Assembly: GCA_903926605.1 (NCBI GenBank)
Contig: CAIYJV010000089.1
Span: 1 to 40,292 of the forward strand
From: an uncultured Bacteroidota bacterium
Lineage (GTDB): Bacteria; Bacteroidota; Bacteroidia; Chitinophagales; Chitinophagaceae
DNA length: 40,292 nucleotides
Reading direction: 5' to 3'
This document shows, one piece after another, positions 1,980-30,955 of this stretch. The notes under the pieces were generated by a model that saw nothing but the letters and a program-made list of their open reading frames with translations, had not been told where the DNA came from and ran no database searches. The translations under genes were made by a program, and so were the position numbers. How positions within the stretch are numbered: position 1 is the first letter of the stretch; each line of letters starts with the position of its first letter.

Positions 1980-2025
1980 TAGCAAAGATTGGAGTAGGAG
2001 AGAAAGGGAGCTTCTCCACTATTGG

Positions 2026-2197
2026 TGGAGGAGCCGGCACGATTGACCACCCAATGCCGTGGCAATTTGACCACACATTTTGATGACGAAAAATAGAATT
2101 GCAAGTTCATTCGGAGAAGGGTAGGGGTCTTGTTCCTATTGAATTTTGGTGGTCAATTAAAACCGGTCAATAGTGGTCAAAAACACCGGCGCTTACA
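2026..2197. mobile_element. IS21-like paired-end remnant or MITE, no transposase
   Basis: A 172-bp segment has matching ends in opposite orientation. The outer ends are TGGAGGAGCCGG (2026-2037) and, on the other strand, TGTAAGCGCCGG (2197-2186), with 9 of 12 bases equal. Each end carries two copies of TTGACCAC spaced 24 bp apart: 2043 and 2067 on the left, 2173 and 2149 on the right as GTGGTCAA. The right end has an additional imperfect copy at 2163-2170. TG...CA termini and multiple repeated transposase-binding sites in each end are the known arrangement of IS21-family elements. There is no room for istA or istB, so this is a deletion derivative or a non-autonomous element. No target duplication is evident at the flanks. 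The symmetry is directly visible; the IS21 assignment is inference. Confidence 0.6.
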
Positions 2198-2458
2198 TCC
2201 AGGCTACCTGACTTGGTCTTTCTTGATTTAGTTATGCCAATTGTAAGTGGGATGGAATTCCTGAGTCGTTTTGAGGTTTTAAAACCTGTCCTGGCAAAGG
2301 CGTGTAGGATATACGTTATGACGGCTTCGATTTCAAATGAAGACTATGAACGAGTGATTCAATCACCACTGGTAACGCAATACATAGTTAAACCGGTGAG
2401 CCGGGATAATCTGAAAGAGATTTTTGCTAGTTTCAGCTCCACACTGAACCAATATTAA
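2198..2458 (+). pseudogene. Response regulator receiver domain, N-terminal third missing
   Basis: The frame encodes LPDLVFLDLVMP, the beta-3 strand with the phosphoacceptor aspartate, then MTAS (the conserved threonine/serine at the end of beta-4) and VKPVS (the conserved lysine-proline), and ends after the last helix. The first 45-50 residues of a receiver domain, including the acidic pair that binds magnesium, are absent. The frame runs back only to a stop at 2171 inside the adjacent transposon end. The match starts within a few bases of that end. The visible part resembles the stand-alone CheY-like regulators common in Bacteroidota. A short product could start at TTG 2213, but it could not fold or bind magnesium normally, so a broken gene is the better call. 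Confidence 0.7.
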
Positions 2459-3258
2459 TTTGAACGCTCTCGTAAAATTGATTAAAGCATTTTTTGCATT
2501 TTTCAATGAAATAGATTTTTTTTGTGTTTGCCTATTATTTTTTTGAAGAATGCATCTCTCAAACATATATTACAAATACTGGTGCTTCATGTTTGATCGG
2601 ACAACACCTGCCCATAGGTACACTCGCGCTTTTGAAGCACTGTTTAGCAAATTTTGTTGTCTTAGTTATTTTTTGATTGGTTTTCCGGAATATTAGTCCA
2701 AAATTTACCCTTTAGTTTCTCTAAACTATCTGCTACATAGCTATTGAAATAGCCATATTTATTGGCCATTGTCAGGTCAATTATTTCCGAGGGGGGTATT
2801 GGGGAGCTTTCTCCATTTTCAAGATTTACGATATTTAAAAAATTTTCCAGCCCTTACAATGGGATTGCGCAGTAAGTTCTGTGGATGAATTTTGACGAGG
2901 GGAATTTCAGTGAACGCAGATCGGTTTGGCAATGTTTATATGACTGGCGCATTTCGTACACCAATGGTACATTTTTGGATTTTCTTTCCAAACTGCCAAA
3001 GTACTGACGTACAGAACTGTATTCTACAAAGGTCAATCAAATATTACCATGTAAAAAAAGCGAATTGCAATACGGGAAAAATACCCTGAAAAACTCAAAA
3101 CTTTTTCTGTGACTTTGAGTTGAATAATACCCTGTGCATATTCGACTTGAATTGAGAATGAAAGTTGTTCGAATTAAATGACAATCAAAAAATTTTGAGA
3201 ATTGAAAAAAATTAACAAACTTTAACAAAAATTCACTTTCCTTTTAAATCTCTTATCT
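2459..3258. other. 800-bp AT-rich stretch without an intact gene
   Basis: No convincing complete coding region is visible on either strand. The DNA is rich in A/T runs. The only recognisable piece is a short beta-propeller-like fragment near 2890-2978. The last 70 bp, with AACAAACTTTAACAAAAATT, presumably holds the promoter for the giant gene that starts at 3259, but no clear TAnnTTTG box was found. Together with the IS remnant and the broken receiver domain this looks like a degraded insertion hot spot. Confidence 0.5.
2889..2978 (+). pseudogene. Possible SBBP-type beta-propeller repeat fragment
   Basis: About 25 residues read GISVNADRFGNVYMTGAF followed by a short beta-strand-like tail. 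This resembles one blade of the SBBP repeat family (consensus roughly GI.VD..GNVYVTG.F) found in secreted Bacteroidota proteins. A stop lies just upstream and the match ends downstream without continuation in the same frame, so it would be a decayed piece of a larger gene. It is too short to be certain; chance resemblance is possible. Confidence 0.3.
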
Positions 3259-6200
3259 ATGAAAAAAGACCTAAACACCAACTCTGTTTCAACTAACAAC
3301 CGTGGGCAAAAATGCCATGTTGTTCCAGCCGGGAGTTCACTCAGATTTGCAAGACTAAGTAGGATTCTGTTTTTGTTTTTATTTTCCATTGGTGCAGTAT
3401 TTGCTGATTGGGAACAAGCGAGTTGTCAGGTGATTTCCGTTTATGCAGGTAATGGCAGTGTCGGAGCCGGTGGTGATGGGGGGAATGCAAGTTCTGCTAC
3501 TTTGAAACTTCCCTGCGCGGTCGCTATCGATCCAGTCACACAGGACTTGTTTATTGCAGATGAGGGAAGCAATAGTGTGCGAAAAATTGATCGATTGACG
3601 AATAATATCACAACAGTTATCGGAAATAGTTCTGTTTACGGAGGGGGGTATAATGGTGACAATGGTATTGCTTCAGCCGCGCTGCTGAAAGTGCCAACTG
3701 GTATTGCTATTGACCAATCGCAAAATATATATATAGCGGATGCACATAACTATCGAGTTAGAAAAATTAACCATGTTACAGGAATCGTTACTACAATTGC
3801 GGGCAACGGATTCTCCGGGACCGCAGCAACCTCTGGTCAGGCAACTGCGTCGCCGCTGAAAAATCCTTCATCAGTCGCAGTCGATCATTCTGGAAACCTA
3901 TATTTTGTTGACTATCCAAACGGAATTTATCGTATTGCTGTTGGGGGGGCGATTTCTCAAATACTAGCTGGTAGCCTTGGCTCAATAATTGCCATTGCCT
4001 TTGATGCGAACAACAATCTTTATTTTACAAGTAACAATCATGGCATCTACAAATTAGCCGGCACTACCGCCGGCGGGCCCACAACAGGAACACCCATCTT
4101 GGTTGCCGGTATTACCGGACCACTCGGAGGATACGTAAACGGAGTTGCACTGGCGAGCAAATTTAACTATCCAGCGGGTATTGCGGTAGACTATTCAGGA
4201 AACCTTTTTCTTGCGGACGTAAACAATGAAAGAATCAGAGAATTCAACAAAGTTCCCGGAACGGTTAGCGACTTTGCAGGAAACGGAAATGTATCGTCGG
4301 GTTACAATTATAGCACCGAAGAATGCGCCGCTGCAACTTCGGTTAGTTTAAACATTCCCGCCACAATTAACTCGCCTTTTGAAACAGGATTAGCAGTGGA
4401 TAATCAAGGGAATGTGTTCATTTGCGATATTTACAACCATGTCGTCAGAAGGGTTCAGGTAGGCACTTCAGGAATTACTGGACCGTCAACGATTTGTGGA
4501 ACGGATGCTGTAACACTTACGGGTGTTCCCGCAGGCGGAAGATGGAGTTCTTCCAGTACAAGTATTGCAACAATTGATCCGGTTTCCGGAGTTATGGATG
4601 CAGTGAGTACAAGTGGTGTCGATATTGTAAGTTATATAACACCATGTTCAACCAGTACTTTTTCTGTGACGTTGAATAGCGCAAGTGCACTATCCATATC
4701 TTCATCCACATCGAGTTTGTGCGTTGGGGCAACTACTACTTTGACACCCAGCGAGACCGGCGGAAGTTGGAGCTGTAGCTCTACTTCTGTTGCGACTGTA
4801 AATGCGGCAACAGGTATCGTCGGCGGTACTGGTGCTGGTGTAGCGATAATTACCTATACTTCCTCCGGTGGATGTTATGCCACAAAAACCATCAGCATCA
4901 ATTCATCAAGCGCCGCGACGATTACCGGGGACAATAAAATTTGTCCCGGAGGTACTATTACATTATCGTCATCAGTGCCCTTGGGCATTTGGTCAAGTTC
5001 TTCACCTTCAATTGCAACGGTTGATCCAGTCACTGGCGTCGTTGGAGGCGTGGGAAGCGGTAGTGCAATCATTACTTACAGTTATAGTTTGTGTTCTGGG
5101 GGGGCACCTTCAACAGAAATAACTACTAAATCCATCACTGTTACGGCCAATCCTATCTCGATAACAGGGGGAAGTGATATTTGTATAAATTCGTCAACAT
5201 ACCTATTAGCTGGTCTTGGTGGAATATGGTCAAGTTCGGATAACTCCGTTGCGACGGTAAATGCGTCCTCTGGATATGTAACCGGACTCATTGGGGGAGG
5301 AACTGCCGGTTTAAGTACGGTGATAATTAGCTATACCTATAGTTGCGGCACAACAACAGGGATAGTAACTACATTTTCCTTAAGTGTACATGGTCCGGCG
5401 CCTATCGGTGTTTCGGGTGACGGCACTGTTTGCGCTGGCTCATCGATTTCACTTTCTGAGATTACAACTGGTGGCATATGGAGTAGTAGTTCCCCAGCTC
5501 ATGCGAGTGTCAGCCCGACAACCGGCCTCACGGTCAATGTTACAGGGGTTAGTCATGGAACAGCCTACATAAATTATAGCATAACAGATTCGTGGTCGAC
5601 ATGTAAAATATCGCAACTGGTAACAGTCATTCCAGATCCACCTTTGCTTTCTTTCAGCGGTGGCGTATGTGCAGGTTCGACTACTACAATTGGGGTGTCT
5701 CCGGCCGGTTCTCCTCTAAGTGGGGCAACCACACCGTGGCAATGGACAGGAACTGCAACAGGTAGTTTGGTTACCACTTCAGACGCGGAGGCGACATTTA
5801 CAATGGGAACTACTGGTGGCTCAGCAACTATCAGTTATACAGCAGAATATACCTATACGGCATGTCCGACTGTTTATACATTCACTGCTACAACATCATT
5901 GAATACTGAACCCGTTGTAGGTGGTATTACAGCACCGGGCTCGTCCCATATCATTTGCGATCTTGATCCGCTACATTTATCAGCGACCGGAGTCGTTGGG
6001 GACACTTATACCTGGAGCAGTAGCAATACAGCAGTAGCAACTGTTGATGCAACCGGTCTTGGTAAAGGAGTTTCATCAGTTGTCGGAACAGCAACTATTT
6101 CATACACAGAATTTGCCTGTGGAACAAGCGTAACCGCCACTTATCCAGTTACTGTGGTTCCTGTACCGGCGCCAATAACTGGAGTTTTGTCTTTATGTGA

Positions 6201-9200
6201 ATCAGACGGCGTCGCTAACACAACAACACTTTCGGATGCGTCACCTTCCGGTATTTTTAGTTGGAATAGTATGTCTCCTAGTTTGGCGCCTGTTACAGCG
6301 TACGGCGTTGTCTACGGTTATGGAGCGGGAACATCAGTCATTACCTATGGATACGGGAATTGTTATACGTCTGCTGTTGTGACAGTAAATCCTAAACCTT
6401 ATATATCTCCTTGTTGTCCTCCGCCTATTTGCCCGGGCGAAACTATTACGCTTACGGAAGCACCGCTGACCGGGGGTACATGGACTTGCAGCACATGTAC
6501 AATAACTCCAATTGACCCTAGCACTGTAGTGATTTCATTTCCAATTACTTCTTCAGGAAATTTTTCAATTTTTTGCACCTCTCCGGAGGCGGCTGGTTCA
6601 TGCCAGGGTAATGGAGGAGTAACAATCAATGGTGTTCCTGAAACCATTTCCGGTCCGCCAACCTTGTGCCGTGGAACAAGTACTACTTTATCCGATGCTG
6701 CATTCGGTGGTACCTGGAGTTGTATTCCGACATCAGTTGCAACTATAAATCCGACGTCTGGAATTATTTCGGCTACTACTTCTTCCAGCACTGTGCCAAC
6801 TACCGTTAATGCAACCTACTCCACGGGATGTGGCCCCAATGCTGTTAAGACGCTCACTATAGAGCCAACACCACGAATTACCAGTACTTTAAATGTTGTT
6901 TGTGCGAATTCCAATATATCAATGTCTGCAAATATTTCCGGCGGCACGTGGAGCAGTAGTTCAACATCTATCGCTTCCGTTAACCCGTCTTCCGGTGTCG
7001 TTACCGGAATTAGTGGCGGGACTGTTTCCATAATTTATATGTTAAGCACTGGATGCCAAGTATCACGTACTATTACAGTCAATCCATTACCCGATATTTC
7101 AGTTACTTCGTCTAGTCCATTGATTTGTCAGGGAGGCATTGTTGATCTAACAGGTGTATCCAGTACCGCTATAAGTTATTTTTGGTCTGGTTCCGACGGA
7201 TTCTCGTCCACAGTTGCAAATCCGGAAATCAGTCCGTCTGTTACGACTACTTATTCGGTAACAGTAACTGATGTAAAAGGTTGTCAAAATGGTGCAACAA
7301 CTACAATTACTGTTAACCCGACTCCAGACATCTCTGTTGCCGCTACTTATACCACAGTATGTGCCAGCACAGCCGTGAGTTTAACCGGAACTTCGTCGGT
7401 TACAACAGTTACCTTTAGCTGGGTGGGTCCAGATGGGTATTCTTCGACACTATCTGATCCAACAGTTACCCCTACTGTGACGACCACTTACACATTGACC
7501 GTAACAGGAACGGACGACTGCCAGAATTCTGCGACAGTGTCAATCAGCGTAAATCCTTTGCCAGATCCGATTTCAAGCGCGGGAATGACGACAAGTATCT
7601 GCGCGGGGTCGTCGCTTACGCTATCTGACGCCACAATGGACCCGTCGGCAACATGGTCTACATCTGATATTTTATATGTTGCAATTAGTGATCCAGCGGT
7701 CGGCGTTGTATCCGGTATTAATGAGGGAACAGCAACAATTTCTTATGTCCTTGGCACTGGCTGTTTCCAAACATTTACATTGACAATCAATGCTTTGCCA
7801 ACCATCATTCCTATTCCTCCAGTAACTTCATCCGTCATTTGTTACAGCTCCGGCGGAGACAACACGCTTCCTTTAATGTCAAGCCCAACCGGTGGAAGTT
7901 GGGTCAGTTCCGCTACTGCAGTCGCCACAATTGATCCCGCGACTGACATTGTTACTGGTTTCCTTGCGGGTACAACGTTTGAAACAGCAACATTGACCTA
8001 TACTTTGTTAGGGTGTAGCAGTACAATTGAAATTACGGTAGATCCAACTGTATCAGTTTCCCTTCCCCCGGTTAACATATATTGTCCAGGTGTTTGGACA
8101 TCCCTACTAGAAGCCGATCCAACCGGGGGGACAGCGCCATATACTGTGGCATGGACTCCTTCCGCAAGTTTGGACCCTAGTGGTGGTACTTCATTTACAG
8201 AAACAATTGTTTCTCTTACAGAGTCAACAGATTTTACCGCCGTTGTAACTGACGCCTATGGTTGTACTGCTGCTTCCGATGTTTATGTTTCAGTTCCATC
8301 CGGAAAATGTGAGCCATGCACAGGGGCCGATCCCTCGCGTCCTCTACTTAGTCTGGGTACCCCCTCTGGGACATCAGGCGGACTTGCAGTCGGTGCCAGT
8401 GGCGCAGTAACCAATATGCCTGTTGGCAATTACTATTTAGATCAGGACTTGGAAATAAGTGGTAAAGTTGTTTTTTTCGGATCATCGACGTTAAATTCAA
8501 CAATCGAAATCAACGCAAATTCAACGATTTATGTGGATGGAGACGCAGCTTTGTTTTTAAATGGTAATCACCTGTATTCTTGCCCAAGTCAAATGTGGGA
8601 AGGAATCGTACTGGGAAACCTGCCTCCTGACGCGGACTACCCGGCAGGTCAGAATGGTGTTATTTCGCTGCGTGCTAATGTTGCGACTGGCGTTGATTCT
8701 GTCAGCACGCTGATTGAAGATGCCCGTGCAGCCGTTACGCTCAATAAGCCAATGGCTCATAATTCATGGCTTCCATACTATATTGTGGCTAATTCAGCAA
8801 TTTTCAACAGCAATTATATCGGCATTTCGCTGCAAAATTTCAATTCATACACCGATATGGATTTGTCTGGAAATTATGCACTGTCTATTCAAAACAGTGT
8901 ATTTACCTGCCGGGATATGACGTCCGGGCCGACAACTTCAAATTATCCGTTCGACTGGCCCAACACAAATCCCGGAACTTATACTGCGCTTTATTCACCA
9001 CTGAAGGGCCGTATCGCTGTGGGTATTTCGGCGTACGACAACCCATATGAAATCGCAAATTATGTGGGTGCCGATTGTCACATTCCTAAATTTATGCACG
9101 ATTACATCGGCATCTACATGAATAACATTGGACAGAATACTTACCCAACTTATAATAGTGTCGTGGTAGGTACTTCAACTACGGAGGTATCAAGCACAGC

Positions 9201-11439
9201 GGACAAATATAACTCGAGGATCAATCTGTTTGACAACCTTTCATATGGCGTGTCTGTAACAAATGGTAATTTCATTTTGCACAATAATGCTTTCGTTGAG
9301 CCTCACATCTCTGTTTTTCCATCACACTCTTTTCCAGTTTATTTAGGCGGGTATGGGGTTTTAGCACAGATGAATGATGCCACATTGTATCAGGCCCTGA
9401 TTGAACCGGTTTACGAGTATGTGCCAGATGGCACTGCCACTGCGATTAATTCTTTCTACAGTTGTAAGTACGGTCTATACTGTAAGGATTACTACCACCT
9501 GAAAGGGGACAACTCATATATTGTAACAAAACAGGATTATAGTAAACCATCTTTTGACCCAAATACCTTTGGTTATTTTGTAAAAACAAAGGCATATGAT
9601 GCCGCTGAGTTCAATCACAACCAAATTACAGCCACTCCAAACGGAATTTCGTTTACATCCACATTTGCGCCCGGCTATTACTCGACGGTCTTAAAAATGT
9701 TTATTCCGGCCGTACAGTGGGCCGGTTCGTTACAGGTCAATTACAACAGGATCAATGCTGCCTTTACTACAGACATAAGTGATTTGAGCACTCACTGCAC
9801 CGCATTTGGTATCTCCGTTCAAAATGCCGCTGGTTTGAGCTATATCATTGACCATGTGACCGGGCATGTCGAAACCAACGGCAATGCAATTGACCGGGCA
9901 TGGAGGGGGATTCTTGTGAATGGTTTTAATATGCAGCAGGTTTTTACAGAAAGTAACAAAATTTCAGTTCGTTCTCATGCAGGAGGGCTCGAACAATGTT
10001 ATGGCATTAGCCATACATACAGTAGAAACAGTTTTGTTTGGAACAATAATGTGGTAGGAAGTGACCATGCGGATATGACCAATTATTCATTGAGAGCATT
10101 TTACGAGTCACACTGCACAAATCCTTCCATTGCTTGTAACAACGAATCTGATCTTTCTCAAGGGTATGAGTTCTTTCTCCAAAATCCTAATACTGCGTGG
10201 CACAACAACGGAATAACAAACAATCTTAGAGGCTTTGTATTGAATCAAGGTATCATCAACCAGCAAGGCAGCCCGACCCAAACAATGGATAATGTATGGA
10301 ATGGGTCAATGTGGGGTATTGCAAATAAACAAACTTATGTAGTAACTGGTGCTTCCAGCGGAACAACTCCGATTCTTTATCCCCTTTATTCTCCTTTTTA
10401 TGTGTTTAATGATGGCTCACATGATCCAGCGTACAATGATGGAGATCATTCAACTGACAATTATGATTTGCCTGGAGCGATCTTCACGACGACTTCCCCT
10501 TCAAAAGAGGATGTCTGCCTTAAAATACAGCCAGGCCCCGGGAGCCCCGATGCTGCGTTGCATCATCCACAAACAGTCTATGAAACCTATGCACGTAATT
10601 CGGCGCCATTTCCTGCGTTAGACACGGAAGTGAGAAGCTGGACTGGACAATATCTTGCTTGGCAGGTAGTGAATAATGATTCTGATTTAATAAATATTTC
10701 TCCGCTTCTGGATAGTTTTGTTTCGATGGCCAATAACTCACGGTATAGTTATGTGGCGTCTATTGAAAACTCAATTATTAATTGTGATTCGTCAACCACA
10801 AACTACTTGTTTGACAATCAGTGGGCGCCGCTTGTCGGAAATGGGCAATTTTTCGATAGTGTCACGGGAGCGTATGTTGTCGATGATAGTTCAGCGGACT
10901 ATATCGTCGGCACTCATCTAAGTTTTTACAAGATCTATCAAAATTACCTCAACGGAGCAATTGAGTGTACCGATAGCATTAAACTTGCTTATTTGGCGAA
11001 CCTTTGTCCTCCTTTGTATGGTCCGGTCGTTTACCAGTCAAGGGCATTGTATTCTGCAGTTTTTGATGCTTTGCGCGTTTGGACGGACAGTTGCGACACA
11101 AAGCCAGATGGAGACCAGTGTAATTGCGGGCAAAATGGTCGGGGAAAAAGGTCTGGAACTTCAATAAGCAGTGGTTCTCTAGACTTTTCAAATCAGCAAT
11201 ATTCTTTGCTTCCGAATCCTAACAAAGGCACTTTTATCATTCAGCAATTTCTCAAGGATATTCAGCCGGTTAGGGCTGTAGTTATGGATGAGTTGGGACG
11301 TGAAGTTTATTATAATGAGCTTCAATTCGTTAATGGTTCTGCAAACATTAGTATCGGTAATCCTGTGCCCGGTGTTTATTTGGTACGCCTTTTAGACTGG
11401 CACGGAAGGATTTTTACATTGAAATTTATCGTCCAATGA
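3259..11439 (+). CDS. Giant T9SS-secreted protein: NHL propeller, Ig-like array, beta-helix, sorting domain (2726 aa)
   Basis: A long basic N-region is followed by a hydrophobic segment (ILFLFLFSIGAVFA, about 36-49) that fits a Sec signal peptide; no other methionine is nearby, so this start is kept. Residues about 60-400 form six NHL blades, each with an [AG]-[VI]-A-[VI/F]-D...N-[LIV]-[YF] core and an ending like VRKI. Residues 405-1687 hold about 16 Ig-like (BIg2/PKD-like) modules with a recurring pattern of C.G, GG.WSSS, A.V or ATI, a turn, then ISY and a second cysteine. Residues about 1700-2480 lack that pattern and read like a right-handed beta-helix, starting near CPSQMWEGIVLG. Residues 2648-2726 are a type A T9SS sorting domain (LLPNPNKGTF...GVYLVRL). 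The product is probably exported and attached to the surface, where it could bind glycans or proteins; ligands are unknown. It overlaps the next gene by ATGA, so the two are likely co-expressed. Confidence 0.88.
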   Translation: MKKDLNTNSVSTNNRGQKCHVVPAGSSLRFARLSRILFLFLFSIGAVFADWEQASCQVISVYAGNGSVGAGGDGGNASSATLKLPCAVAIDPVTQDLFIADEGSNSVRKIDRLTNNITTVIGNSSVYGGGYNGDNGIASAALLKVPTGIAIDQSQNIYIADAHNYRVRKINHVTGIVTTIAGNGFSGTAATSGQATASPLKNPSSVAVDHSGNLYFVDYPNGIYRIAVGGAISQILAGSLGSIIAIAFDANNNLYFTSNNHGIYKLAGTTAGGPTTGTPILVAGITGPLGGYVNGVALASKFNYPAGIAVDYSGNLFLADVNNERIREFNKVPGTVSDFAGNGNVSSGYNYSTEECAAATSVSLNIPATINSPFETGLAVDNQGNVFICDIYNHVVRRVQVGTSGITGPSTICGTDAVTLTGVPAGGRWSSSSTSIATIDPVSGVMDAVSTSGVDIVSYITPCSTSTFSVTLNSASALSISSSTSSLCVGATTTLTPSETGGSWSCSSTSVATVNAATGIVGGTGAGVAIITYTSSGGCYATKTISINSSSAATITGDNKICPGGTITLSSSVPLGIWSSSSPSIATVDPVTGVVGGVGSGSAIITYSYSLCSGGAPSTEITTKSITVTANPISITGGSDICINSSTYLLAGLGGIWSSSDNSVATVNASSGYVTGLIGGGTAGLSTVIISYTYSCGTTTGIVTTFSLSVHGPAPIGVSGDGTVCAGSSISLSEITTGGIWSSSSPAHASVSPTTGLTVNVTGVSHGTAYINYSITDSWSTCKISQLVTVIPDPPLLSFSGGVCAGSTTTIGVSPAGSPLSGATTPWQWTGTATGSLVTTSDAEATFTMGTTGGSATISYTAEYTYTACPTVYTFTATTSLNTEPVVGGITAPGSSHIICDLDPLHLSATGVVGDTYTWSSSNTAVATVDATGLGKGVSSVVGTATISYTEFACGTSVTATYPVTVVPVPAPITGVLSLCESDGVANTTTLSDASPSGIFSWNSMSPSLAPVTAYGVVYGYGAGTSVITYGYGNCYTSAVVTVNPKPYISPCCPPPICPGETITLTEAPLTGGTWTCSTCTITPIDPSTVVISFPITSSGNFSIFCTSPEAAGSCQGNGGVTINGVPETISGPPTLCRGTSTTLSDAAFGGTWSCIPTSVATINPTSGIISATTSSSTVPTTVNATYSTGCGPNAVKTLTIEPTPRITSTLNVVCANSNISMSANISGGTWSSSSTSIASVNPSSGVVTGISGGTVSIIYMLSTGCQVSRTITVNPLPDISVTSSSPLICQGGIVDLTGVSSTAISYFWSGSDGFSSTVANPEISPSVTTTYSVTVTDVKGCQNGATTTITVNPTPDISVAATYTTVCASTAVSLTGTSSVTTVTFSWVGPDGYSSTLSDPTVTPTVTTTYTLTVTGTDDCQNSATVSISVNPLPDPISSAGMTTSICAGSSLTLSDATMDPSATWSTSDILYVAISDPAVGVVSGINEGTATISYVLGTGCFQTFTLTINALPTIIPIPPVTSSVICYSSGGDNTLPLMSSPTGGSWVSSATAVATIDPATDIVTGFLAGTTFETATLTYTLLGCSSTIEITVDPTVSVSLPPVNIYCPGVWTSLLEADPTGGTAPYTVAWTPSASLDPSGGTSFTETIVSLTESTDFTAVVTDAYGCTAASDVYVSVPSGKCEPCTGADPSRPLLSLGTPSGTSGGLAVGASGAVTNMPVGNYYLDQDLEISGKVVFFGSSTLNSTIEINANSTIYVDGDAALFLNGNHLYSCPSQMWEGIVLGNLPPDADYPAGQNGVISLRANVATGVDSVSTLIEDARAAVTLNKPMAHNSWLPYYIVANSAIFNSNYIGISLQNFNSYTDMDLSGNYALSIQNSVFTCRDMTSGPTTSNYPFDWPNTNPGTYTALYSPLKGRIAVGISAYDNPYEIANYVGADCHIPKFMHDYIGIYMNNIGQNTYPTYNSVVVGTSTTEVSSTADKYNSRINLFDNLSYGVSVTNGNFILHNNAFVEPHISVFPSHSFPVYLGGYGVLAQMNDATLYQALIEPVYEYVPDGTATAINSFYSCKYGLYCKDYYHLKGDNSYIVTKQDYSKPSFDPNTFGYFVKTKAYDAAEFNHNQITATPNGISFTSTFAPGYYSTVLKMFIPAVQWAGSLQVNYNRINAAFTTDISDLSTHCTAFGISVQNAAGLSYIIDHVTGHVETNGNAIDRAWRGILVNGFNMQQVFTESNKISVRSHAGGLEQCYGISHTYSRNSFVWNNNVVGSDHADMTNYSLRAFYESHCTNPSIACNNESDLSQGYEFFLQNPNTAWHNNGITNNLRGFVLNQGIINQQGSPTQTMDNVWNGSMWGIANKQTYVVTGASSGTTPILYPLYSPFYVFNDGSHDPAYNDGDHSTDNYDLPGAIFTTTSPSKEDVCLKIQPGPGSPDAALHHPQTVYETYARNSAPFPALDTEVRSWTGQYLAWQVVNNDSDLINISPLLDSFVSMANNSRYSYVASIENSIINCDSSTTNYLFDNQWAPLVGNGQFFDSVTGAYVVDDSSADYIVGTHLSFYKIYQNYLNGAIECTDSIKLAYLANLCPPLYGPVVYQSRALYSAVFDALRVWTDSCDTKPDGDQCNCGQNGRGKRSGTSISSGSLDFSNQQYSLLPNPNKGTFIIQQFLKDIQPVRAVVMDELGREVYYNELQFVNGSANISIGNPVPGVYLVRLLDWHGRIFTLKFIVQ
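4471..8319 (+). repeat. About 16 degenerate Ig-like modules in the 2726-aa protein
   Basis: By reading the translation I count about 16 modules of roughly 70-95 residues, divided by short linkers such as NPLPD or NPTPD. Most contain two cysteines that could pair, a central GG.W, and ISY near the end. Modules 12, 13 and 16 have a PKD-like variant (YFWSGSDGFSS, TFSWVGPDGYSS). The copies differ strongly in sequence, so this is an old protein-level array and not a recent DNA duplication. Confidence 0.75.
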
Positions 11440-12815
11440 AAAAACTGAAGTTTTTGGTGCTATCTTTCATTTTATCGTTGCTGATGTCTTTAAAATTATC
11501 GGCACAGATAATAACAACTGTAGCTGGTATTACTCCTTATGGATTCGCCGGGAGTTTCGGCGGGGATAATGGGCCGGCAACGGCAGCATATTTAAATCAG
11601 CCTGTAGCTGTGGCATTTGATAGTTTAGGAAATTTATACATTGCAGACGAAGACAACCTACGAATTAGAATGGTTGATACCGCTGGCGTCATACATACAA
11701 TTGCCGGAAACGGGATTGGAGGTTTTAGAGGAGATGATAGTGACGCAAGTTATGCTGAGTTTTGTGACATGGCGTACATTCGGCTAGTCAACAATTGTCT
11801 TTATATACCGGACATTTGCAACAATCGCATTAGAAAAATCGACTTAAGCACAAATGTTATTACGACCTGTGTCGGCGATGGAACTCCAATGTGTTTTGAT
11901 GACACTGGCGCTGTTAGTGCCGTCCATGTTTTTGACCCTTTTTGTGTGGATGTAGACTACCTTGGAAATTTGTATTATAGCAATGTCTGCAATGTGGTAC
12001 ACAAAATCACACCTGACAATCAGGTGTATAGGGTTGCCGGTACAGATTCTGTTACTGGCTTTGGCGGCAATGGGGGTCCCGCAACTGCTGCAATACTGAA
12101 CCACCCAAATGATGTCGCCCATGACCAATATGGAAATATGTATATCACCGACGTGCATAATAATATTATTAGAAAAGTGGACGAGTTCGGAATCATTACA
12201 ACCTTTGCCGGTACCGGCGTTTATAACTATAACGGCGATTATGGACCTGCAACTGCTGCCGCTCTAAATTGGCCGCAGGGTATTACTTGTGACGGTGCGG
12301 GCAATGTATTTTTTACCGATTGCGATAACAATGTTGTTCGTAGAATTGATCGTAATACCAATATTATCACGACGGTTGTGGGGTGCGGTGCAGGATGGGA
12401 TGTGGATACCGGTGGTTTTTCTGGTGATGGTGGGCCTGCGACAGCGGCGAAAATGTACCACCCGGGAGGTCTAGCATTTGACAAAGACGGCAACTTGTAT
12501 ATTGCGGACTGGCTAAATAATAGGGTGCGGAAAGTAACCAATGTGGGCGTGCCGTTGAAGGCCCGGAGTGTGGGGAAACAAAGCGACGATATAATAAGCG
12601 TGTACCCCAATCCTGCCAGGAATGAAGTGAACATTAAGACAGAAGCGGCAGGACTGGTACAGATACTCGACCTGACCGGCAGATGCATGACCCAGACAAT
12701 TGTACACCAAACCCCGGCCACCCAGAATATCGCAGAACTGCCGCCAGGAATATATGTCGTCATGTTTACAGACACTAACGGCAATAAACGATATGTTAAG
12801 TTCGCACGGGAGTAG
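11436..12815 (+). CDS. Secreted NHL-repeat protein with T9SS sorting domain (459 aa)
   Basis: The signal peptide is clear (MKKLKFLVLSFILSLLMS, likely cleaved near LSAQ). Six NHL blades follow, for instance QPVAVAFDSLGNLYIADEDN and HPGGLAFDKDGNLYIADWLN. Most are separated by the GDxGPATAA motif typical of this subfamily, so the protein should fold as a six-bladed propeller. Residues about 386-459 form a T9SS sorting domain (SVYPNPARNEVNIKTE...LPPGIYVVMF). The start codon overlaps the stop of the preceding giant gene (ATGA), which points to translational coupling. The propeller is related in type to the one at the N-terminus of the giant protein, so the two may share a ligand or assemble together; that is inference. 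The last 280 bases are much more GC-rich than the body of the gene. Confidence 0.87.
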   Translation: MKKLKFLVLSFILSLLMSLKLSAQIITTVAGITPYGFAGSFGGDNGPATAAYLNQPVAVAFDSLGNLYIADEDNLRIRMVDTAGVIHTIAGNGIGGFRGDDSDASYAEFCDMAYIRLVNNCLYIPDICNNRIRKIDLSTNVITTCVGDGTPMCFDDTGAVSAVHVFDPFCVDVDYLGNLYYSNVCNVVHKITPDNQVYRVAGTDSVTGFGGNGGPATAAILNHPNDVAHDQYGNMYITDVHNNIIRKVDEFGIITTFAGTGVYNYNGDYGPATAAALNWPQGITCDGAGNVFFTDCDNNVVRRIDRNTNIITTVVGCGAGWDVDTGGFSGDGGPATAAKMYHPGGLAFDKDGNLYIADWLNNRVRKVTNVGVPLKARSVGKQSDDIISVYPNPARNEVNIKTEAAGLVQILDLTGRCMTQTIVHQTPATQNIAELPPGIYVVMFTDTNGNKRYVKFARE

Positions 12816-23959: not shown

Positions 23960-26900
23960 ATGCAACTGACACACGATCGCGGGAGAAATTGGCTTCTTTT
24001 TATTGGATGCCTGTTTGCTTTTGTCTTTTTTAATGACGGCGCTTTCGCGCAGACACCTATTGGTCCAAACACCTGGGGAGGCACAAATACCGATCCCGGG
24101 AGTGCAGCTCCATCAACCTACACGCCGTTGCCAGCAACCACAACGCCCGGTTCCACGGCTGTTTCTGTTTCACAGTGGAACCGCGGTTCCGGTATTACCT
24201 ACAACGCAGGTAGCAACCGTTATAATTCGAAAAACTGGTACTCGGCGGGAATCAGCACCGTTGCAGCGGCATTTACCGCAGGCAAGTACGTTTATTTTAC
24301 GGTAACCAATAACAGTACTACCGAGTTACAGATCACCAATATCTCAATTACGGGTGGTCAGGCCAGCGGCACCGGACCCAATACATTCGGCATGATGTAC
24401 CAGATCGGATCGGGCACCGCAACTGTATTTACAGCGTCTGTGGCTGGCCCTACGCCATCATTCAGTGGACTGGTAAACCTTTGTGCGGGTCAAACTGCCA
24501 CCTTCTACGTTTGTGGTTGGGGCGGTACGGCGGCAGCGGGAACCTGGAGTATTGGCGGTTCGTCGGGTACCGGGTCTACAGCTCCGGCATCCATTACAGC
24601 CAATTATGCGAATGCGATCGCCATAAGCGCCTCATCCAGTAGTTCTCCCGTAGTGGAAGGTGGCACCTTGCTTCTTACCGGCGGCACGGTAACACCGGGT
24701 GTAGCACCATACACTTATTCCTGGACCGGGCCTCTGGCATATTCGTCTACCGCGCAAAACCCAACTGTCCCGGGCGTTGCAACCAGTGCGTCCGGAACAT
24801 ATAGTTATTCTGCAACAGATGCTTTTGGTTGCAGCGTAAGCAATTCAACCAGCGTCACTGTGACTGCTGCTGTGAGTTGCTCCGGAACTCCTTTACCAGG
24901 AACTGCATCTGCCACGCCTGCCTCTTTTTGCAATAGCGGATCCTCCACTCTGGGTGTCACCGGAGGTACTGTTGCAACAGGCATCACCTATCAGTGGTTT
25001 TCAGCAAATAGTCCTACAGGGACTTTTACCGCCATCCCTGGAGCCACATTGAATTCATACACAACGCCAACGATCACATCGAATACTTATTACTTCCTGC
25101 AGACTACCTGCACCGGTTCTTCTGCGACTGTGGAATCCGATACGGTGGAGGTAGTCATAAACCCAATTCCAACAGGCATTGCCACCCCAACCGGCATTAC
25201 CACTTTAGATATCGGCGCTACCCTACCCCTTACAGACCCAACAACCGGCTTTACCACCGGCTGGATCAGCGGTTCAACCTCCGTTGCTTCAGTAGATGCA
25301 TCGGGCAATGTGACCGGACTGAGCGCAGGAACAACCGATATTACTTATTGTGTAACCAACACCTTTGGATGCACGGGCTATAGCACACCACTGACAATTA
25401 CCGTTAACCCCTACCCTTATTGCGTACCACCCGTCACTTCCAGCGGCGACGGTGTGGGATTTAATACATCTGGCGGCATTGCGGACATTACTTCCTATAC
25501 ACAGACCGGTACCTTTTTTAGTCGAGTAGCGACTGTTGGCATTACGACAAAACCCGGAGCAACTATATCTTATACAGTTTCAAATCCTTCGACTTATGCC
25601 TCGACAACTTATTACAGTTCGATCTGGGCCGACTGGAACCACAGCTACGTATTTGGAGACTCCACTTCCGAACAAATGCTGAGTGCACAAACCGTTACAT
25701 ACAGCGGCGGCACCTATAATGGCTCGTTCACGGTACCCACCACAGCCCGCGGCGGATTTACCGTGATGCGGGTGTCTATGGGTGAGTCTGCAGCCACAGA
25801 CTATACCGATCCATGCGGTGGTGGCTATGGCAGCGTAGTGGACTTCTATGTCAAAATACTTCCCGACATCACATTGGGCGCTACGCCTGTTGCTTGTCTG
25901 GGCGCCACTGCCGTGGAAACCATAAATGCCGTAACCGGCAGTGCGTCTGCATACTATATCAATTGGGACGCAACAGCATTGACCGCCGGTTTTTCAAATA
26001 TTTTAACCACTCCGCTGGGTAGTGACATCAGCATATCGATCCCTTCCACCCTGACCGGATTTTCAGCTCCCACAACTTACAATGGGACATTGTATGTAAC
26101 GAACGGCGCCTATGTGAGCACTGGCACACCGATCTCGGTTCTTGTAAATCCTTTTACTACAGTAGCACCATTAACTGGTGACTCCGTGGTTTGTGTTTCC
26201 TTGACCGGCACAATGAATGACATTACCCCTGCCGGCGCATGGGCTTCCACAAACCCACTCGTCGCTACCGTGGATGCATCCGGGCATTTCTCGGGTGTGG
26301 CGGCCGGCGTTACATCAATCAGCTATTCTGTAACTGGCTGTGGCACTGCAACAACCACTAAAAACATTACGGTAAATATGCTGCCGGATCCTGGTTCGAT
26401 ATCTGGCAACAACGAGGTTTGTCTCTCAGTACATGATACCCTATCTGAAACAATGACCGGAGGTGCCTGGAGTAGCAGCGCGTCGTCCGTCGCCACGATT
26501 GATGGTACGGGAATTGTGACCTGCGTTGGTGCGGGCGTCACCACAATTTCATATACCGTAACAGGATTTTGTGGTAACAGTTACGCAACGCGTACACTGA
26601 CCATAAACGATGTCCCAGAAGCTGGCACCATCACCGGCGATTCGGTATTTTGTCCTGCAGGATCGACTACGCTTTCTGAGTCTGCATCTGCCGGCGCCTG
26701 GAGCACCTCCAACACCGATGCCGCATCGGTATCGGTCGCTGGCGTACTGTCAGCCAATTCTCCCGGAATTGACACGGTGCTGTATACCATCACAAATATG
26801 TGCGGCTATTCTGTGGCTTCATTTCCCATTACTGTAAACTCACTCCCTCTCTTGGCTGTATTGGATGGACTTTCCAGCCTTTGCATATCAGACACCACGA

Positions 26901-29900
26901 CAATCTCTGCATCCGTTAGCGGAGGCACGTGGTTATCTGGAAGCACCGGTCTTGCCTCCATAACAGCTGGTGGTTTTGTAACAGCCGTTGCTGCTGGCTC
27001 GGTTGACATTAGTTACACCATTGCCAATACTTGCGGTTCTGTTACAGCCTTATATACGCTCACTATAAACCCGATCGCCGATCCGGGAATTATTTCAGGA
27101 CCGTCCTCCGTCTGTGTGGGGTCGGCAATTTTACTGTCAGAATCTGGCACCGGGGGCAATTGGTCGGCGGCAAACGGCAACACATCTGTTTCAGCTACAG
27201 GTGCGGTGATCGGTGTGAATACCGGCGTAGACACACTTTATTACTCTGTAACGAACATCTGCGGAACCACTTTTGCACAACACTCCGTAACAATCAACCC
27301 ACTTCCCCAAATAAGCCAGATCGCAGGTGACTCCTTTATATGTCAGGGCTCGTTGTCCAGCCTTAGCGATACTGTTACCGGAGGTACCTGGAGCGCGTCA
27401 CCCGCCACGATAATCTCAGTGGACATTAATGGAAATGCAACGGGGCTTGCTGCTGGCACGGGCACCGTGACTTATCAGACTTCAAACAGTTGTGGTTTTC
27501 TGGTCGCCCACAAACAAATTACAGTAAATCCGCTGCCGGATGCAGGCGTCATCAGCGGCACTTCCGTACTTTGCCCCGGCTCAATCAGTACCCTTGGCGA
27601 GACCACCACCGGAGGTGTATGGACTTCATCCGACACCGCAATCGCAAAAATCTATACCTCAGGTGTCATGACCGGGATAGGACCTGGGATTTGTGTGATC
27701 AGTTATACCCAAACAAATAGCTGCGGCTCTGCAAGTGCCACATTTACGATAACAGTAAATACTGCGCCCGGTCCCGGCTCTATTACCGGCGCTAGCGAAT
27801 TCTGCCCCGGTAACGTGGCTACGCTGAGTGAATCCACCAGCGGCGGAGACTGGTCCAGTGCAAACACGGCAGTGATGTCGGTAGACGGGACCGGTACGGT
27901 CCACGCAAATTCTGCCGGTGTGTCTATCATTTATTATACCATTTCCAATAGCTGCGGTAGTGTGTACGCCGAACATAGCATCACCGTTGATCCCTTGCCG
28001 GATGCGGGTAGCATTTCGGGCAGCAGCTCTGTATGTACAGGGCTTACTGATTCGCTCTCCGTGTCTGCTTCCGGTGGTGTCTGGAACTCTGCCAACTCCG
28101 GCATAGCCACGGTGGATGCAGAGGGCGCTGTTTCGGGAATATCTACCGGCAACACGATCATTTCATATACCGTTGCAAATGTTTGTGGTAGTGCGACCAG
28201 TACGTTGACCATTAGTATTAATATGGCTCCCGAACTAAACCCGGTAACGGGTGACAGCATGGTTTGTCAGGGCCGCTTCCTTAGTCTGAATGAAACAACG
28301 ACCGGAGTGACATGGAATACGTCCGACCCTGCTATAGTACTAGTATCGGCATCAGGAGTTGTGACAGGGATCTCGACAGGAACAGCGACAATCACTGTTT
28401 CAGTTGCCAATTCCTGCGGGTCTGTCAGTGCGATCAGGAATATTACAGTCAATCCCCTTCCGGGAGCTATTTCCGGACCGTCAACCCTGTGTGTGGGTAC
28501 CGGATTAACGCTTTCTGATACTACAGCGGGCGGCTCCTGGAGCAGCAGCGATCCCGGAATGATGACCGTAGATCCCACTACAGGATTCGTTAACGATCTG
28601 GGACTGGGCACAGCAATAATTTCTTATACCCTTCCATCCACCGGCTGTTTTGTGACCAGAACAGAATCCGTAAATCCGCTCCCCAACTCGGGTATCATTA
28701 CAGGACCCACGACACTTTGCACTGGCAATATTATTACACTGGATGACTCCGCGCCTGGCGGCACTTGGATGGCTTCAAACAGTCATGCCTCTGTTTCATC
28801 ACTGGGTGCCGTAACCGGAAATTCAGCCGGGGTAGACACGATAAAATACACCTTGTCAAATGGCTGTGGCGCGGCGACAGCCCGCTATACCATTACGGTA
28901 AATCCTTTCCCGACCACCGATACCATCTCGGGCATGTCTGCCGTTTGTCAGGGAAGTACCATCACGCTGAGTGTTTCAGACACAACCGGAACCTGGAACT
29001 TATCCAATAACAGTGGTGCGCTGACTGGTAATATGTTCACTGGCATTTTAGCAGGAACCGACACCGTATTTTACAATCACACCAATAGTTGCGGTTCCAC
29101 AACCGCAGTGCTTGTCATTGCCGTTAATGCATTGCCGGGAGCAATTACCGGCCCGGGATTTGTTTGTCGGGGTGCGGGTTCTATACTATCCTGCGGCGAA
29201 CCAGGGGTTTGGAACAGTTCAGATACGGACATGGTTTTGATAGATCCTTTGGCGGGTGCCATTGCTGGTATACAAACAGGTACAGCAACGATAAGTTTCA
29301 CCAATACAAACGGATGCACCACAGCCATTAGTTTTACTGTAAACCCAGCGCCATCGGTCATCGGGGGAACTTCCTCATTCTGCGTTGGCGAAACCGTGTA
29401 CTATTCAGACAGTGCCACCGGTACATGGACCTCGTCGGGTGGTATTGTCGCAATAGACACATCGGGCAATGCGTATGCTACTGCTCCGGGAGCCGACACC
29501 ATAGTTTATTCTAATTCGTTTGGGTGTTTTGTCACGAAAACCGTGACTGCAAATCCACTGCCGGGGGCTATTGCAGGCCCTGCTGCTGTATGTACCGGTA
29601 ACAACATAAGCCTTAGCGATCCTGCATTGGGTGGAACGTGGACTGTTAGCAATGGCACGGCGACCATAGATTCGGTTACCGGCTTGCTGGCAGGTGTAAA
29701 CGCAGGATCAGATACGGTACAGTACATGCTTCCCACGGGTTGCAATGTACTATTACCCATAAACGTGTTGGCCATGCCTTTGCCTATAAGTGGTTTGTCT
29801 GCAACCTGTCCCGGACAAAACGATACACTTTCCAGTTCAGGTTCTGGAATCTGGTTGGCGTCAAATAATAATGGATCAGTGGATAGCGCGACGGGAATTT

Positions 29901-30955
29901 TTCATGCCGTCACAGCTGGAACCGACACTATAACCTATACACTAAACGGCATTTGCACCGTGACAACCGTAGTTACAATCAATCCTTCTCCGTACGCAGG
30001 ACCAGTTGTGGGACCTGACAGTTTGTGTACAGGAACATCAGTCACACTTTCTGATACTACATCTGGCGGTACTTGGAGCGCTACTAATAGCAATGTCTCC
30101 GTTTCCGGTGCAGTTGCAACCGGAGCACAACCCGGCCTGGACACCATCTATTATGCAGTGAACAATGTTTGCGGTACGGCGGTTGCCTCAAAAACCATTA
30201 CCGTACTACAACTACCGGCAATTGATGCTATTACAGGGACTTCTTCCGGATGTGCGGGGCAAACTGTTACGCTGGCCGATGCGGCATCAGGCGGCAGCTG
30301 GTCAATATCGGGCACTGGGCCGGCTACCATCTCAACCGATGGCATTGTCAGTCTGCATGGCTACGGCAACGACACTGCAGTGTACACCATAACCGGCTTT
30401 TGCGGCACCCGGGATACAACTTTTGTCATACATGCAGACACACTTGCAATTGCGGGCATTACTGGCGGAAGCTACTTGTGTATCGGACATCCCGATACAC
30501 TATCTGGCCAACCTACAGGCGGTACCTGGAGTGCAAGCAACGGATTTCTATCTGTTACCGGAGGCATCACAACTGGAATTTCACCGGGAATAGACACCAT
30601 TACTTACAGTTATACTGGTACCTGCGGCACGTCTCAGTTTTCGATTCCCGTGCCCGTGCTCACCGCGGCACAATGCGATTCCGTAAACCTGGTACAACAG
30701 CCCGGAACCCAATCTTTTGCATTGAACATTTATCCGAACCCTGCGGCAGGCCAGGTGCATATTATGCTGGCGGCACCGATAGCAACACGTGCACAGATCT
30801 TAGTTTGGAATGCGATGGGCGAAAAAGTATGGGAACAGGAACTAACGTCCAACATGGACGAACTTTTGGGTGTGCAGCTTAACTCAGGAATGTATTTGGT
30901 GGTAGCACGGACAGGTAACGAAAGCTTCACGCATCGCTTGATCATTGTGCGTTAA
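23960..30955 (+). CDS. Giant T9SS-secreted Ig-like repeat protein (2331 aa)
   Basis: The N-terminal hydrophobic stretch WLLFIGCLFAFVFFNDGAFA is a signal peptide. Residues about 30-500 contain beta-rich and Ig-like segments. Residues about 510-635 resemble a GEVED domain (WADWNHSYVFGDS near 556, PCGGGYGSVVDFYV near 620). Residues 737-2238 are 20 tandem Ig-like modules of 70-78 residues. Residues 2255-2331 are a T9SS sorting domain (LNIYPNPAAGQVHIML...NSGMYLVVARTG). The architecture predicts a long surface fibre-like adhesin or an extracellular matrix protein. It is related in module type to the 2726-aa protein 12 kb to the left, but is more regular and more GC-rich. A hairpin terminator follows directly. 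Target and partner are unknown. Confidence 0.88.
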   Translation: MQLTHDRGRNWLLFIGCLFAFVFFNDGAFAQTPIGPNTWGGTNTDPGSAAPSTYTPLPATTTPGSTAVSVSQWNRGSGITYNAGSNRYNSKNWYSAGISTVAAAFTAGKYVYFTVTNNSTTELQITNISITGGQASGTGPNTFGMMYQIGSGTATVFTASVAGPTPSFSGLVNLCAGQTATFYVCGWGGTAAAGTWSIGGSSGTGSTAPASITANYANAIAISASSSSSPVVEGGTLLLTGGTVTPGVAPYTYSWTGPLAYSSTAQNPTVPGVATSASGTYSYSATDAFGCSVSNSTSVTVTAAVSCSGTPLPGTASATPASFCNSGSSTLGVTGGTVATGITYQWFSANSPTGTFTAIPGATLNSYTTPTITSNTYYFLQTTCTGSSATVESDTVEVVINPIPTGIATPTGITTLDIGATLPLTDPTTGFTTGWISGSTSVASVDASGNVTGLSAGTTDITYCVTNTFGCTGYSTPLTITVNPYPYCVPPVTSSGDGVGFNTSGGIADITSYTQTGTFFSRVATVGITTKPGATISYTVSNPSTYASTTYYSSIWADWNHSYVFGDSTSEQMLSAQTVTYSGGTYNGSFTVPTTARGGFTVMRVSMGESAATDYTDPCGGGYGSVVDFYVKILPDITLGATPVACLGATAVETINAVTGSASAYYINWDATALTAGFSNILTTPLGSDISISIPSTLTGFSAPTTYNGTLYVTNGAYVSTGTPISVLVNPFTTVAPLTGDSVVCVSLTGTMNDITPAGAWASTNPLVATVDASGHFSGVAAGVTSISYSVTGCGTATTTKNITVNMLPDPGSISGNNEVCLSVHDTLSETMTGGAWSSSASSVATIDGTGIVTCVGAGVTTISYTVTGFCGNSYATRTLTINDVPEAGTITGDSVFCPAGSTTLSESASAGAWSTSNTDAASVSVAGVLSANSPGIDTVLYTITNMCGYSVASFPITVNSLPLLAVLDGLSSLCISDTTTISASVSGGTWLSGSTGLASITAGGFVTAVAAGSVDISYTIANTCGSVTALYTLTINPIADPGIISGPSSVCVGSAILLSESGTGGNWSAANGNTSVSATGAVIGVNTGVDTLYYSVTNICGTTFAQHSVTINPLPQISQIAGDSFICQGSLSSLSDTVTGGTWSASPATIISVDINGNATGLAAGTGTVTYQTSNSCGFLVAHKQITVNPLPDAGVISGTSVLCPGSISTLGETTTGGVWTSSDTAIAKIYTSGVMTGIGPGICVISYTQTNSCGSASATFTITVNTAPGPGSITGASEFCPGNVATLSESTSGGDWSSANTAVMSVDGTGTVHANSAGVSIIYYTISNSCGSVYAEHSITVDPLPDAGSISGSSSVCTGLTDSLSVSASGGVWNSANSGIATVDAEGAVSGISTGNTIISYTVANVCGSATSTLTISINMAPELNPVTGDSMVCQGRFLSLNETTTGVTWNTSDPAIVLVSASGVVTGISTGTATITVSVANSCGSVSAIRNITVNPLPGAISGPSTLCVGTGLTLSDTTAGGSWSSSDPGMMTVDPTTGFVNDLGLGTAIISYTLPSTGCFVTRTESVNPLPNSGIITGPTTLCTGNIITLDDSAPGGTWMASNSHASVSSLGAVTGNSAGVDTIKYTLSNGCGAATARYTITVNPFPTTDTISGMSAVCQGSTITLSVSDTTGTWNLSNNSGALTGNMFTGILAGTDTVFYNHTNSCGSTTAVLVIAVNALPGAITGPGFVCRGAGSILSCGEPGVWNSSDTDMVLIDPLAGAIAGIQTGTATISFTNTNGCTTAISFTVNPAPSVIGGTSSFCVGETVYYSDSATGTWTSSGGIVAIDTSGNAYATAPGADTIVYSNSFGCFVTKTVTANPLPGAIAGPAAVCTGNNISLSDPALGGTWTVSNGTATIDSVTGLLAGVNAGSDTVQYMLPTGCNVLLPINVLAMPLPISGLSATCPGQNDTLSSSGSGIWLASNNNGSVDSATGIFHAVTAGTDTITYTLNGICTVTTVVTINPSPYAGPVVGPDSLCTGTSVTLSDTTSGGTWSATNSNVSVSGAVATGAQPGLDTIYYAVNNVCGTAVASKTITVLQLPAIDAITGTSSGCAGQTVTLADAASGGSWSISGTGPATISTDGIVSLHGYGNDTAVYTITGFCGTRDTTFVIHADTLAIAGITGGSYLCIGHPDTLSGQPTGGTWSASNGFLSVTGGITTGISPGIDTITYSYTGTCGTSQFSIPVPVLTAAQCDSVNLVQQPGTQSFALNIYPNPAAGQVHIMLAAPIATRAQILVWNAMGEKVWEQELTSNMDELLGVQLNSGMYLVVARTGNESFTHRLIIVR
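26168..30670 (+). repeat. Twenty tandem Ig-like modules of about 75 residues
   Basis: Reading the translation, I count 20 units with the pattern I-[ST]-G....C-x-G...LS...GG.W..S......V...G...G...G...I.Y......CG.....ITVNPLP. Each unit has two cysteines about 48 residues apart. The linker NPLPDAG or a variant recurs between units. Units 13-17 are shorter and several lack the CG dipeptide. DNA identity between units is low by eye, so expansion is not recent. Confidence 0.8.

Follow-up and report, generated by a model that had tools for sequence, protein, structure and literature searches.

Members of the Bacteroidota export many proteins that carry a sorting tail, and to our knowledge most of these have no known partner or regulation. 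The genes described here lie on a 40,292-nt contig (CAIYJV010000089.1, assembly GCA_903926605.1) of an uncultured member of the Chitinophagaceae; this whole stretch is called the window. A giant gene with features of type IX secretion system (T9SS) cargo overlaps a small downstream gene, termed the satellite, which encodes an NHL propeller with its own sorting domain. The pair is probably one version of a two-gene unit for surface proteins that is conserved in a Bacteroidota order, with the partner substituted in the window. The usual partner belongs to a family called NPSFE, a label coined here for a motif near the mature N-terminus (alignment A4).

Two described groups of proteins resemble the pair. 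Type A C-terminal domains of T9SS cargo are recognised by the PorV shuttle, and genes for type B substrates are often found linked to those for shuttles (PMC12618676). The pair is like type A cargo in having a C-terminal sorting domain, over a curated cut-off in the satellite and under it in the giant, and a signal-peptide-like start, and the translocon protein SprA is encoded in the same genome (TIGR04189, 2158 bits, cut-off 200). It differs in that the linkage is between two type A-like cargo genes. Teneurin-like proteins (TLP) are reported from six phyla, and Bacteroidota are not among them (PMC13018210). The window satellite shares the NHL propeller with TLP and teneurins, its best Foldseek match being the teneurin-like protein 9ifo (36% identity, E 6.6e-32), followed by a quenching protein and teneurins. 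Unlike TLP, the window proteins have no YD-repeat, RHS or toxin module in a Pfam scan at E<=1, and neither combines the FN-plug, NHL and YD-shell that define a bacterial TLP in one protein.

Other systems resemble the arrangement of the genes. In work on Haloferax volcanii and E. coli, 13 of the 14 gene pairs tested proved strictly coupled in termination-reinitiation at such overlaps, and only 10% of overlapping Bacteroidetes pairs had a Shine-Dalgarno motif (PMC6728339). The window pair has the same 4-nt overlap as these termination-reinitiation pairs, but many NPSFE pairs differ from them by a strong hairpin in the first codons of the second gene. An ATGA overlap alone does not prove that two proteins work jointly. 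In the pil1 locus of Streptococcus gallolyticus, moving ribosomes destabilise a stem-loop terminator that precedes genes for surface proteins; there a leader peptide of variable length is translated (PMC3894217), whereas in the present case the giant or its tail would take that part. The hairpin here also lies inside the satellite coding sequence (CDS). The pil1 attenuation is a working analogy and not a membership. In the orphan tip cassettes of rhs and polymorphic toxin genes, truncated 3' ends of a long surface gene are kept before alternative downstream genes. The same is seen here, with the difference that the exchanged part is a separate T9SS-type protein. No toxin family was named in Pfam scans of the window's two proteins and the NPSFE satellites tested, and no search for immunity genes was made. 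A limited literature search on T9SS cargo, on NHL, propeller or Ig proteins and on recombination found no account of such a giant-satellite pair.

Downstream partners of the giant family

The C-terminal half of the giant, used alone as query, matched four of 59 relatives (its own genome included), all within the genus. A profile of five homologues (A3) reached further. Among 147 genomes it picked up strong homologues from further genera of the same family (G104, G087, G103 and G069; G numbers denote genomes and C numbers contigs) and partial ones in G071 and G081. It matched 100 of the 147, most of them only at its sorting-domain end among the matches listed. Twenty stretches were fetched, picked from the best A3 matches; a contig search listed 17 loci, mostly distant. 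For the partner census, profiles were made of the solenoid, linker, tail, NHL and NPSFE parts, and the gene downstream of each open reading frame (ORF) with a solenoid or linker match was recorded where the sequence behind it could be read.

Seventeen solenoid or linker ORFs from seven genera have an NPSFE gene downstream in 12 cases, a propeller in two and neither in three. The NPSFE-followed ORFs are at G001:C317, G003:C182, G069:C105, G069:C131 (two), G069:C206, G071:C224, G081:C67, G103:C95, G104:C121, G104:C281 and G104:C382, with the NPSFE gene frame-broken at G001:C317 and G069:C206. The two followed by a propeller, the window and G002:C36, both belong to the window's genus. As a control, longer ORFs (298-3512 aa) that have a related tail and no solenoid or linker were followed by such a partner in none of 15 cases (Fisher 1.5e-6). 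Short tail-only ORFs (68-159 aa) were all followed by a satellite (nine of nine; NPSFE eight, NHL one), and they are read, from their sequences, as truncated giants.

The census table has 52 rows, and the counts of 17 and 15 omit the nine short tail-only ORFs and four satellites that match the tail profile. They also omit rows at contig ends (G003:C166, G103:C4, G104:C540 and G104:C654; G002:C293 is absent for the same reason), G113:C20 and G113:C31, where a different T9SS-type gene comes next, and the ambiguous G001:C451. With these last three included the control is 0 of 18. The G113 loci (L239, L240) have giant-related tails followed by a gene of about 440-510 aa with the motif KEDYxWxxGYDS, perhaps a third satellite family.

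A search from the NPSFE side, covering 20 further loci, added four pairs, three at G104:C732, G104:C422 and G069:C40 and one at G116:C81, a locus from a different family of the order. At G107:C52 the NPSFE gene lies behind a 177-aa T9SS-like tail that has no profile match, and most of the others are solo. The pair is found in at least seven genera: the window's and those of G069, G071, G081, G103, G104 and G116. This spread, the exchangeable second protein and the hidden structure offer a way to study how surfaces diversify and how a second protein is switched. The preliminary description of the window had looked to recurrence of the gene order in other genomes as support for a joint function. 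The order does recur across genera, as a giant followed, mostly at tight spacing, by a small T9SS protein. Independent occurrence in relatives, which that description took as the sign of the opposite, is seen for the propeller and not for the giant.

The NPSFE proteins scanned have no Pfam match over cut-off except the sorting domain, with weak HpiC1-like and carbohydrate-binding matches (E 0.014-0.019); the protein is perhaps a jelly roll. A profile search of solved structures matched the sorting-domain part of the family only. At G104:C422 (L245) two NPSFE genes stand in tandem behind one giant tail, with embedded hairpins of -28.2 and -15.8. Sorting domains also cross families, since the tail of the NHL satellite at G003:C142 (L106) is 81% identical to that of the NPSFE protein at G003:C182.

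The unit probably consists of a giant sorting-tail protein that carries the common solenoid and linker, with a small T9SS satellite directly behind it. This satellite is usually NPSFE, and an NHL propeller would have taken over at least once in the ancestry of the genus. The giant tail together with its satellite appears to have been copied elsewhere, leaving truncated tails or a few tail codons before other satellites. Both proteins would be exported separately through Sec and the T9SS and placed at the surface. It is tentatively proposed, at somewhat below an even chance, that the giant is an Ig stalk with a variable N-terminal head and the satellite a second, exchangeable binding head. The ATGA overlap would make translation of the satellite dependent on that of the giant or its tail.

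The propeller as a probable substitute partner

The satellite was described in advance as a six-bladed NHL propeller, and its structural model bears this out, with a closed fold and strands for six four-stranded blades (counted from the strand list). It scores 49.3 bits with PF01436 (NHL, cut-off 20), 41.7 with PF18962 (cut-off 27) and 44.5 with TIGR04183 (cut-off 23). The model for the scytonemin-associated NHL protein ScyF (NF035926) gives 76.9 bits and does not reach its equivalog cut-off of 350. In a tree of 29 NHL satellites, the four tail-linked propellers (window C89, G002:C36, G003:C142 and G000:C97, G000 being the window's own genome) and the solo relatives C170 and C336 form one clade (99/95), which persists at 97/96 when 18 longer NHL proteins are added. 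Because these six group together, the propeller is taken as a lineage-specific substitution that, as the sequences are read, replaced the usual partner at least once in the ancestry of the genus. The tree gives no support to an origin of the two propellers by duplication within the pair. Between G002 (L074) and G003 (L106) the tail-linked propellers differ by about 0.84 changes per site, and two other NHL pairs between these species by about 0.03-0.1; this may be fast divergence or paralogy.

It had been proposed that the two proteins act together as matched propellers. In favour are the NHL propellers in both, the overlap of their genes, which is confirmed at 4 nt, and the tight spacing common in the family. 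Such a system is very improbable, since the usual partner is not a propeller, the giant at G002:C36 has no NHL domain, and the giant's own propeller falls outside the satellite clade on a long branch whose place is unsure (bootstrap not settled). A propeller-propeller machine is not supported. Coupling is not uniform either: in the propeller pairs of G002 and G003 the spacer is 78 and 60 nt long and holds a terminator-like hairpin.

A chance neighbour was also considered, in which one of dozens of NHL genes landed behind a giant. The satellite propeller has 127 matching pieces in its own genome (426 contigs, 97% complete), some covering the sorting domain only, and most propeller genes are solo, with four of 18 tail-linked in the locus scan and four of 29 in the tree. 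The paralogues C336 (79% identity; only 390 nt are present upstream of it, near the contig start), C170 (66%) and C97 (44%) have no adjoining giant, and among the NHL loci examined in G000 a propeller stands directly behind a full giant in the window only. Chance is nevertheless highly improbable as the explanation, because the four tail-linked propellers of three genomes all belong to a single clade and satellites follow solenoid giants in other genera too.

The junction of the window pair has a second context in the assembly. Around the start of the propeller gene, a stretch of 112 nt recurs without a difference as the last part of contig C396, which upstream of it carries the leader of a solo propeller. 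This leader is near-identical to that of the solo C170 and partly like that of C336, and it contains what we take to be a Bacteroidota-type promoter motif. The start of the window propeller is thus also present in a solo context. C396 ends at the shared sequence; the second copy may reflect recent duplication, strain variation or a false join. Among 53 contig ends tested against the fetched loci, C396 was the only one to share sequence; with a single case, the overlap of C396 and C89 did not serve as a sign of the assembler's k-mer length. It is improbable that the giant and the propeller were joined artificially through this sequence and that the giant's true neighbour is different. The solo context and the singularity of C396 favour such a join. 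Same-clade propellers also follow a giant tail at G002:C36, G003:C142 and G000:C97, however, and a near-identical duplicate or strain variant would look the same.

Several observations weigh against the reading as a conserved unit whose partner was substituted. A satellite is lacking behind three giants (G069:C101, G087:C4a and G087:C52); G087, with two of them, is not among the 44 genomes that have NPSFE at E<=1e-15. The loci come mainly from best matches and are not a random sample. A promoter-like leader element is common to C396 and the solo C170 and C336, and in the tree C89 nests with C336, so the window pair may have been re-formed from a solo copy and not have come down unbroken.

Hairpins at the satellite starts and dispersed giant tails

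The most surprising result is a hairpin within the signal-peptide codons of many overlapping NPSFE pairs. Of 28 linked junctions, 24 have a hairpin of <=-10 kcal/mol with a U-rich stretch behind it within about 130 nt, and so do four of 84 mononucleotide shuffles. Inside the CDS, hairpins of <=-14 kcal/mol in the first 115 nt were counted. By hand labels they occur in 19 of 26 linked NPSFE genes (these 26 include the second gene of the G104:C422 tandem), four of 26 solo ones (these 26 include two that are not NPSFE satellites, the G104:C281 giant and G107:C52 at 1694), none of four linked NHL genes and none of 29 solo NHL genes. The hand-labelled background is 9/278 for other signal-peptide genes, which include two NPSFE genes (G107:C52 at 3239 and G128:C57), and 7/239 for other genes.

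Labelling by profile gives 21 of 31 linked NPSFE genes, four of 24 solo ones, none of five linked NHL genes, one of 28 solo NHL genes, 7/279 other signal-peptide genes and 6/235 other genes. Linked genes differ from solo ones at p 3e-4 and from other signal-peptide genes at p 2e-19, with the reservation that related genes are not independent. The profile rule for linkage is loose; it probably mislabels G003:C120 (twice), and perhaps G069:C154 and G104:C593, as linked, and G001:C317, G002:C112 and G002:C12, tail-linked by eye, as solo. On synonymous resampling of the 26 hand-labelled linked genes the median z was -3.6; the observed value was never reached in 40 resamples for 17 of them and at most once for 20. 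Among other signal-peptide genes with a tight upstream gene the hairpin is present in 2 of 24, one being the G107 NPSFE gene. The stem sequences differ widely between genera (G104, G103, G069, G071, G081, G116, G107 and the loci of the genus; L222-L262).

In the NPSFE pairs the hairpin would stop transcription unless a ribosome runs on from the giant into the satellite. Such gating through translation is possible, if doubtful. The hairpin of the window propeller is weak (-10.1), and that of C97 weaker (-5.1). The window satellite would be co-expressed without a gate, its hairpin having been lost or never present.

The hairpin may instead be the giant's 3' terminator, an mRNA-stability element, a targeting pause or a folded DNA site for cassette movement, which together have close to an even chance. 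The spacers at G002:C36, G003:C142, G003:C143, G003:C207 and G002:C12, all of at least 51 nt, have one strong hairpin each (z -5.7 to -7.8), like an ordinary terminator, and the 30-nt spacer at G002:C430 has no strong hairpin on folding. Stems are long and unrelated in sequence, and the unit of tail and satellite is dispersed. In overlapping pairs, however, the start codon of the satellite precedes the hairpin, and a plain terminator at that place would cut off the satellite. A limited search of the literature on terminators, signal peptides and coupling found related mechanisms and not this arrangement.

Other counts tell against the gate itself. Three of the four hairpin-bearing solo NPSFE genes are in G128 (C4, C10 and C57; L251-L256), which have no recognised giant tail; possibly their tails were missed by the profile, or the hairpin belongs to the NPSFE gene itself. 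Ten of the 31 profile-labelled linked genes have no CDS hairpin, some having it in the spacer. The U-run is weak evidence for termination because signal-peptide codons are U-rich anyway; the stem, and not the U-run, is the real signal.

A giant-type tail that ends within 100 nt upstream or overlaps is present at 16 of 38 satellites (NPSFE 12 of 20, including G003:C120, apparently a chance match; NHL 4 of 18) and at 10 of 441 other genes, in samples that are not random since the loci were fetched by similarity to satellites or giants. Tail lengths are graded from full giants through about 290, 150, 126, 110 and 85 codons down to fewer than 10, the shortest being near the limit of recognition. 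Since all that precedes other satellites is a shortened remnant of the giant's tail, the tail and satellite appear to have been copied together to other loci.

It is conceivable, though rather unlikely, that conserved flanks let recombination swap the satellite and disperse the units. The upstream flank would be the 3' end of the giant, and the downstream one the sorting domains common to some NHL and NPSFE satellites. A tail ORF that is kept would serve as a leader, and in the usual units only ribosomes from the giant or the tail would open the hairpin, a switch for transcription. The window would then represent the state after loss, with the propeller swapped in, the overlap kept and the hairpin gone.

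Short repeats beside the satellites were considered as a means of dispersal. The motif TCTGAA[CT] lies within 60 nt after the stop of 8 of 15 NPSFE genes of G002 and G003 and of none of three in G000, so this is not general. Several NPSFE genes in G002 and G003 (L075, L144, L146, L148, L149, L153 and others) carry a dispersed short repeat, TCTGAACCATGATT.., on their stop codon or directly behind it. The same repeat is found reversed at the 5' end of truncated giant tails in these genomes, in ORFs that start with MVQT.

Architecture of the giant and surroundings of the pair

Features of the gene pair in the window (positions are those of the window)
Feature	Position	Strand	Basis and remarks
Giant T9SS-type gene	3259..11439	+	2726 aa; homologues in its own and in further genera
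NHL propeller at the giant's N-terminus (about aa 59-410)	3433..4488	+	Pfam NHL, TEN_NHL; profile matches
Array of about 16 Ig-like modules	4480..8325	+	Pfam Big_2, Ig_NUP210_16th; motif counts 15 and 17
Solenoid/beta-helix-like region, common to the giant family	8326..10515	+	homologue alignment A3; profile match; low-confidence model
Helical linker preceding the sorting domain	10588..11175	+	conserved block in A3; helices in low-confidence model; profile match
Giant-type sorting tail (..PNPNxG..Q....LKFxVQ*)	11212..11439	+	alignment A1; Por_Secre_tail 23.7 bits, under cut-off
Sequence identical to the C396 end (112 nt; other side of C396 is a solo-propeller leader)	11413..11524	+	sequence comparison
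ATGA overlap of giant and satellite (4 nt)	11436..11439	+	sequence
Satellite gene (NHL propeller of six blades, plus a type A sorting domain of its own)	11436..12815	+	459 aa; model mean pLDDT 87.1
Sorting domain of the satellite	12600..12812	+	Pfam aa 389-451; TIGR04183 aa 389-456

The NHL propeller of the giant scores 58.4 bits with PF01436 (cut-off 20) and 60.3 with TEN_NHL (cut-off 27.1), and the Ig part 43.5 with Big_2 (cut-off 22.8) and 96.8 with Ig_NUP210_16th (cut-off 27). The estimate of about 16 Ig modules was right, since one pattern counts 15 Cys-type starts and another 17 W-type motifs. Both genes had been credited with an NHL propeller and a sorting domain. NHL is over cut-off in both, as is the sorting domain of the satellite, but the tail of the giant stays under the PF18962 cut-off of 27 and has no TIGR04183 match at E<=0.1. 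The homologous giant at G002:C36 passes both cut-offs (PF18962 40.2 bits, TIGR04183 36.3).

The C-terminal half of the giant, with the solenoid region, has no Pfam family at E<=1. Its AlphaFold model (mean pLDDT 46.8) runs from short regular strands through helices to the sorting domain, which makes a solenoid or beta-helix plausible; the region is here called solenoid-like. A profile search of the PDB gave the sorting-domain entry 8glk at E 0.0019 and one other entry at chance level (E 0.79). The combination of domains in the giant had been called unusual, and this holds in part. The giant's Ig part matches six further NHL-bearing open frames in its own genome (C202, C139, C333, C268, C321 and C422), so NHL with an Ig array recurs there. 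An NHL domain on a solenoid-bearing giant is seen in the window only, among 16 listed ORFs longer than 700 aa that match the solenoid or the linker; several of these are cut by contig ends. An NPSFE domain at the giant's N-terminus was dropped as a candidate, as it had no profile match among the 16 giants listed.

The gene hutU lies near the pair both in the window and at G002:C36, and no pair stands beside hutU in the stretches of G001 and G003 examined. Upstream, positions 3-1979 encode the C-terminal part of a large, anti-phage-like helicase with an MTES_1575 nuclease, cut by the contig start (PADLOC PDC-S37 143.7 bits; NCBIfam ProA 148.9 against a cut-off of 1500). The stretch 1980-3258 before the giant is debris-like and was identified by eye; it includes an 81-aa ORF (2213-2458) that resembles a piece of a response regulator and, immediately before the giant, a 65-aa ORF with an NHL/SBBP-like motif. 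Downstream, positions 23960-30955 encode a second giant T9SS-type protein (2331 aa); it combines Ig modules with a GEVED domain, and its sorting domain passes the cut-off.

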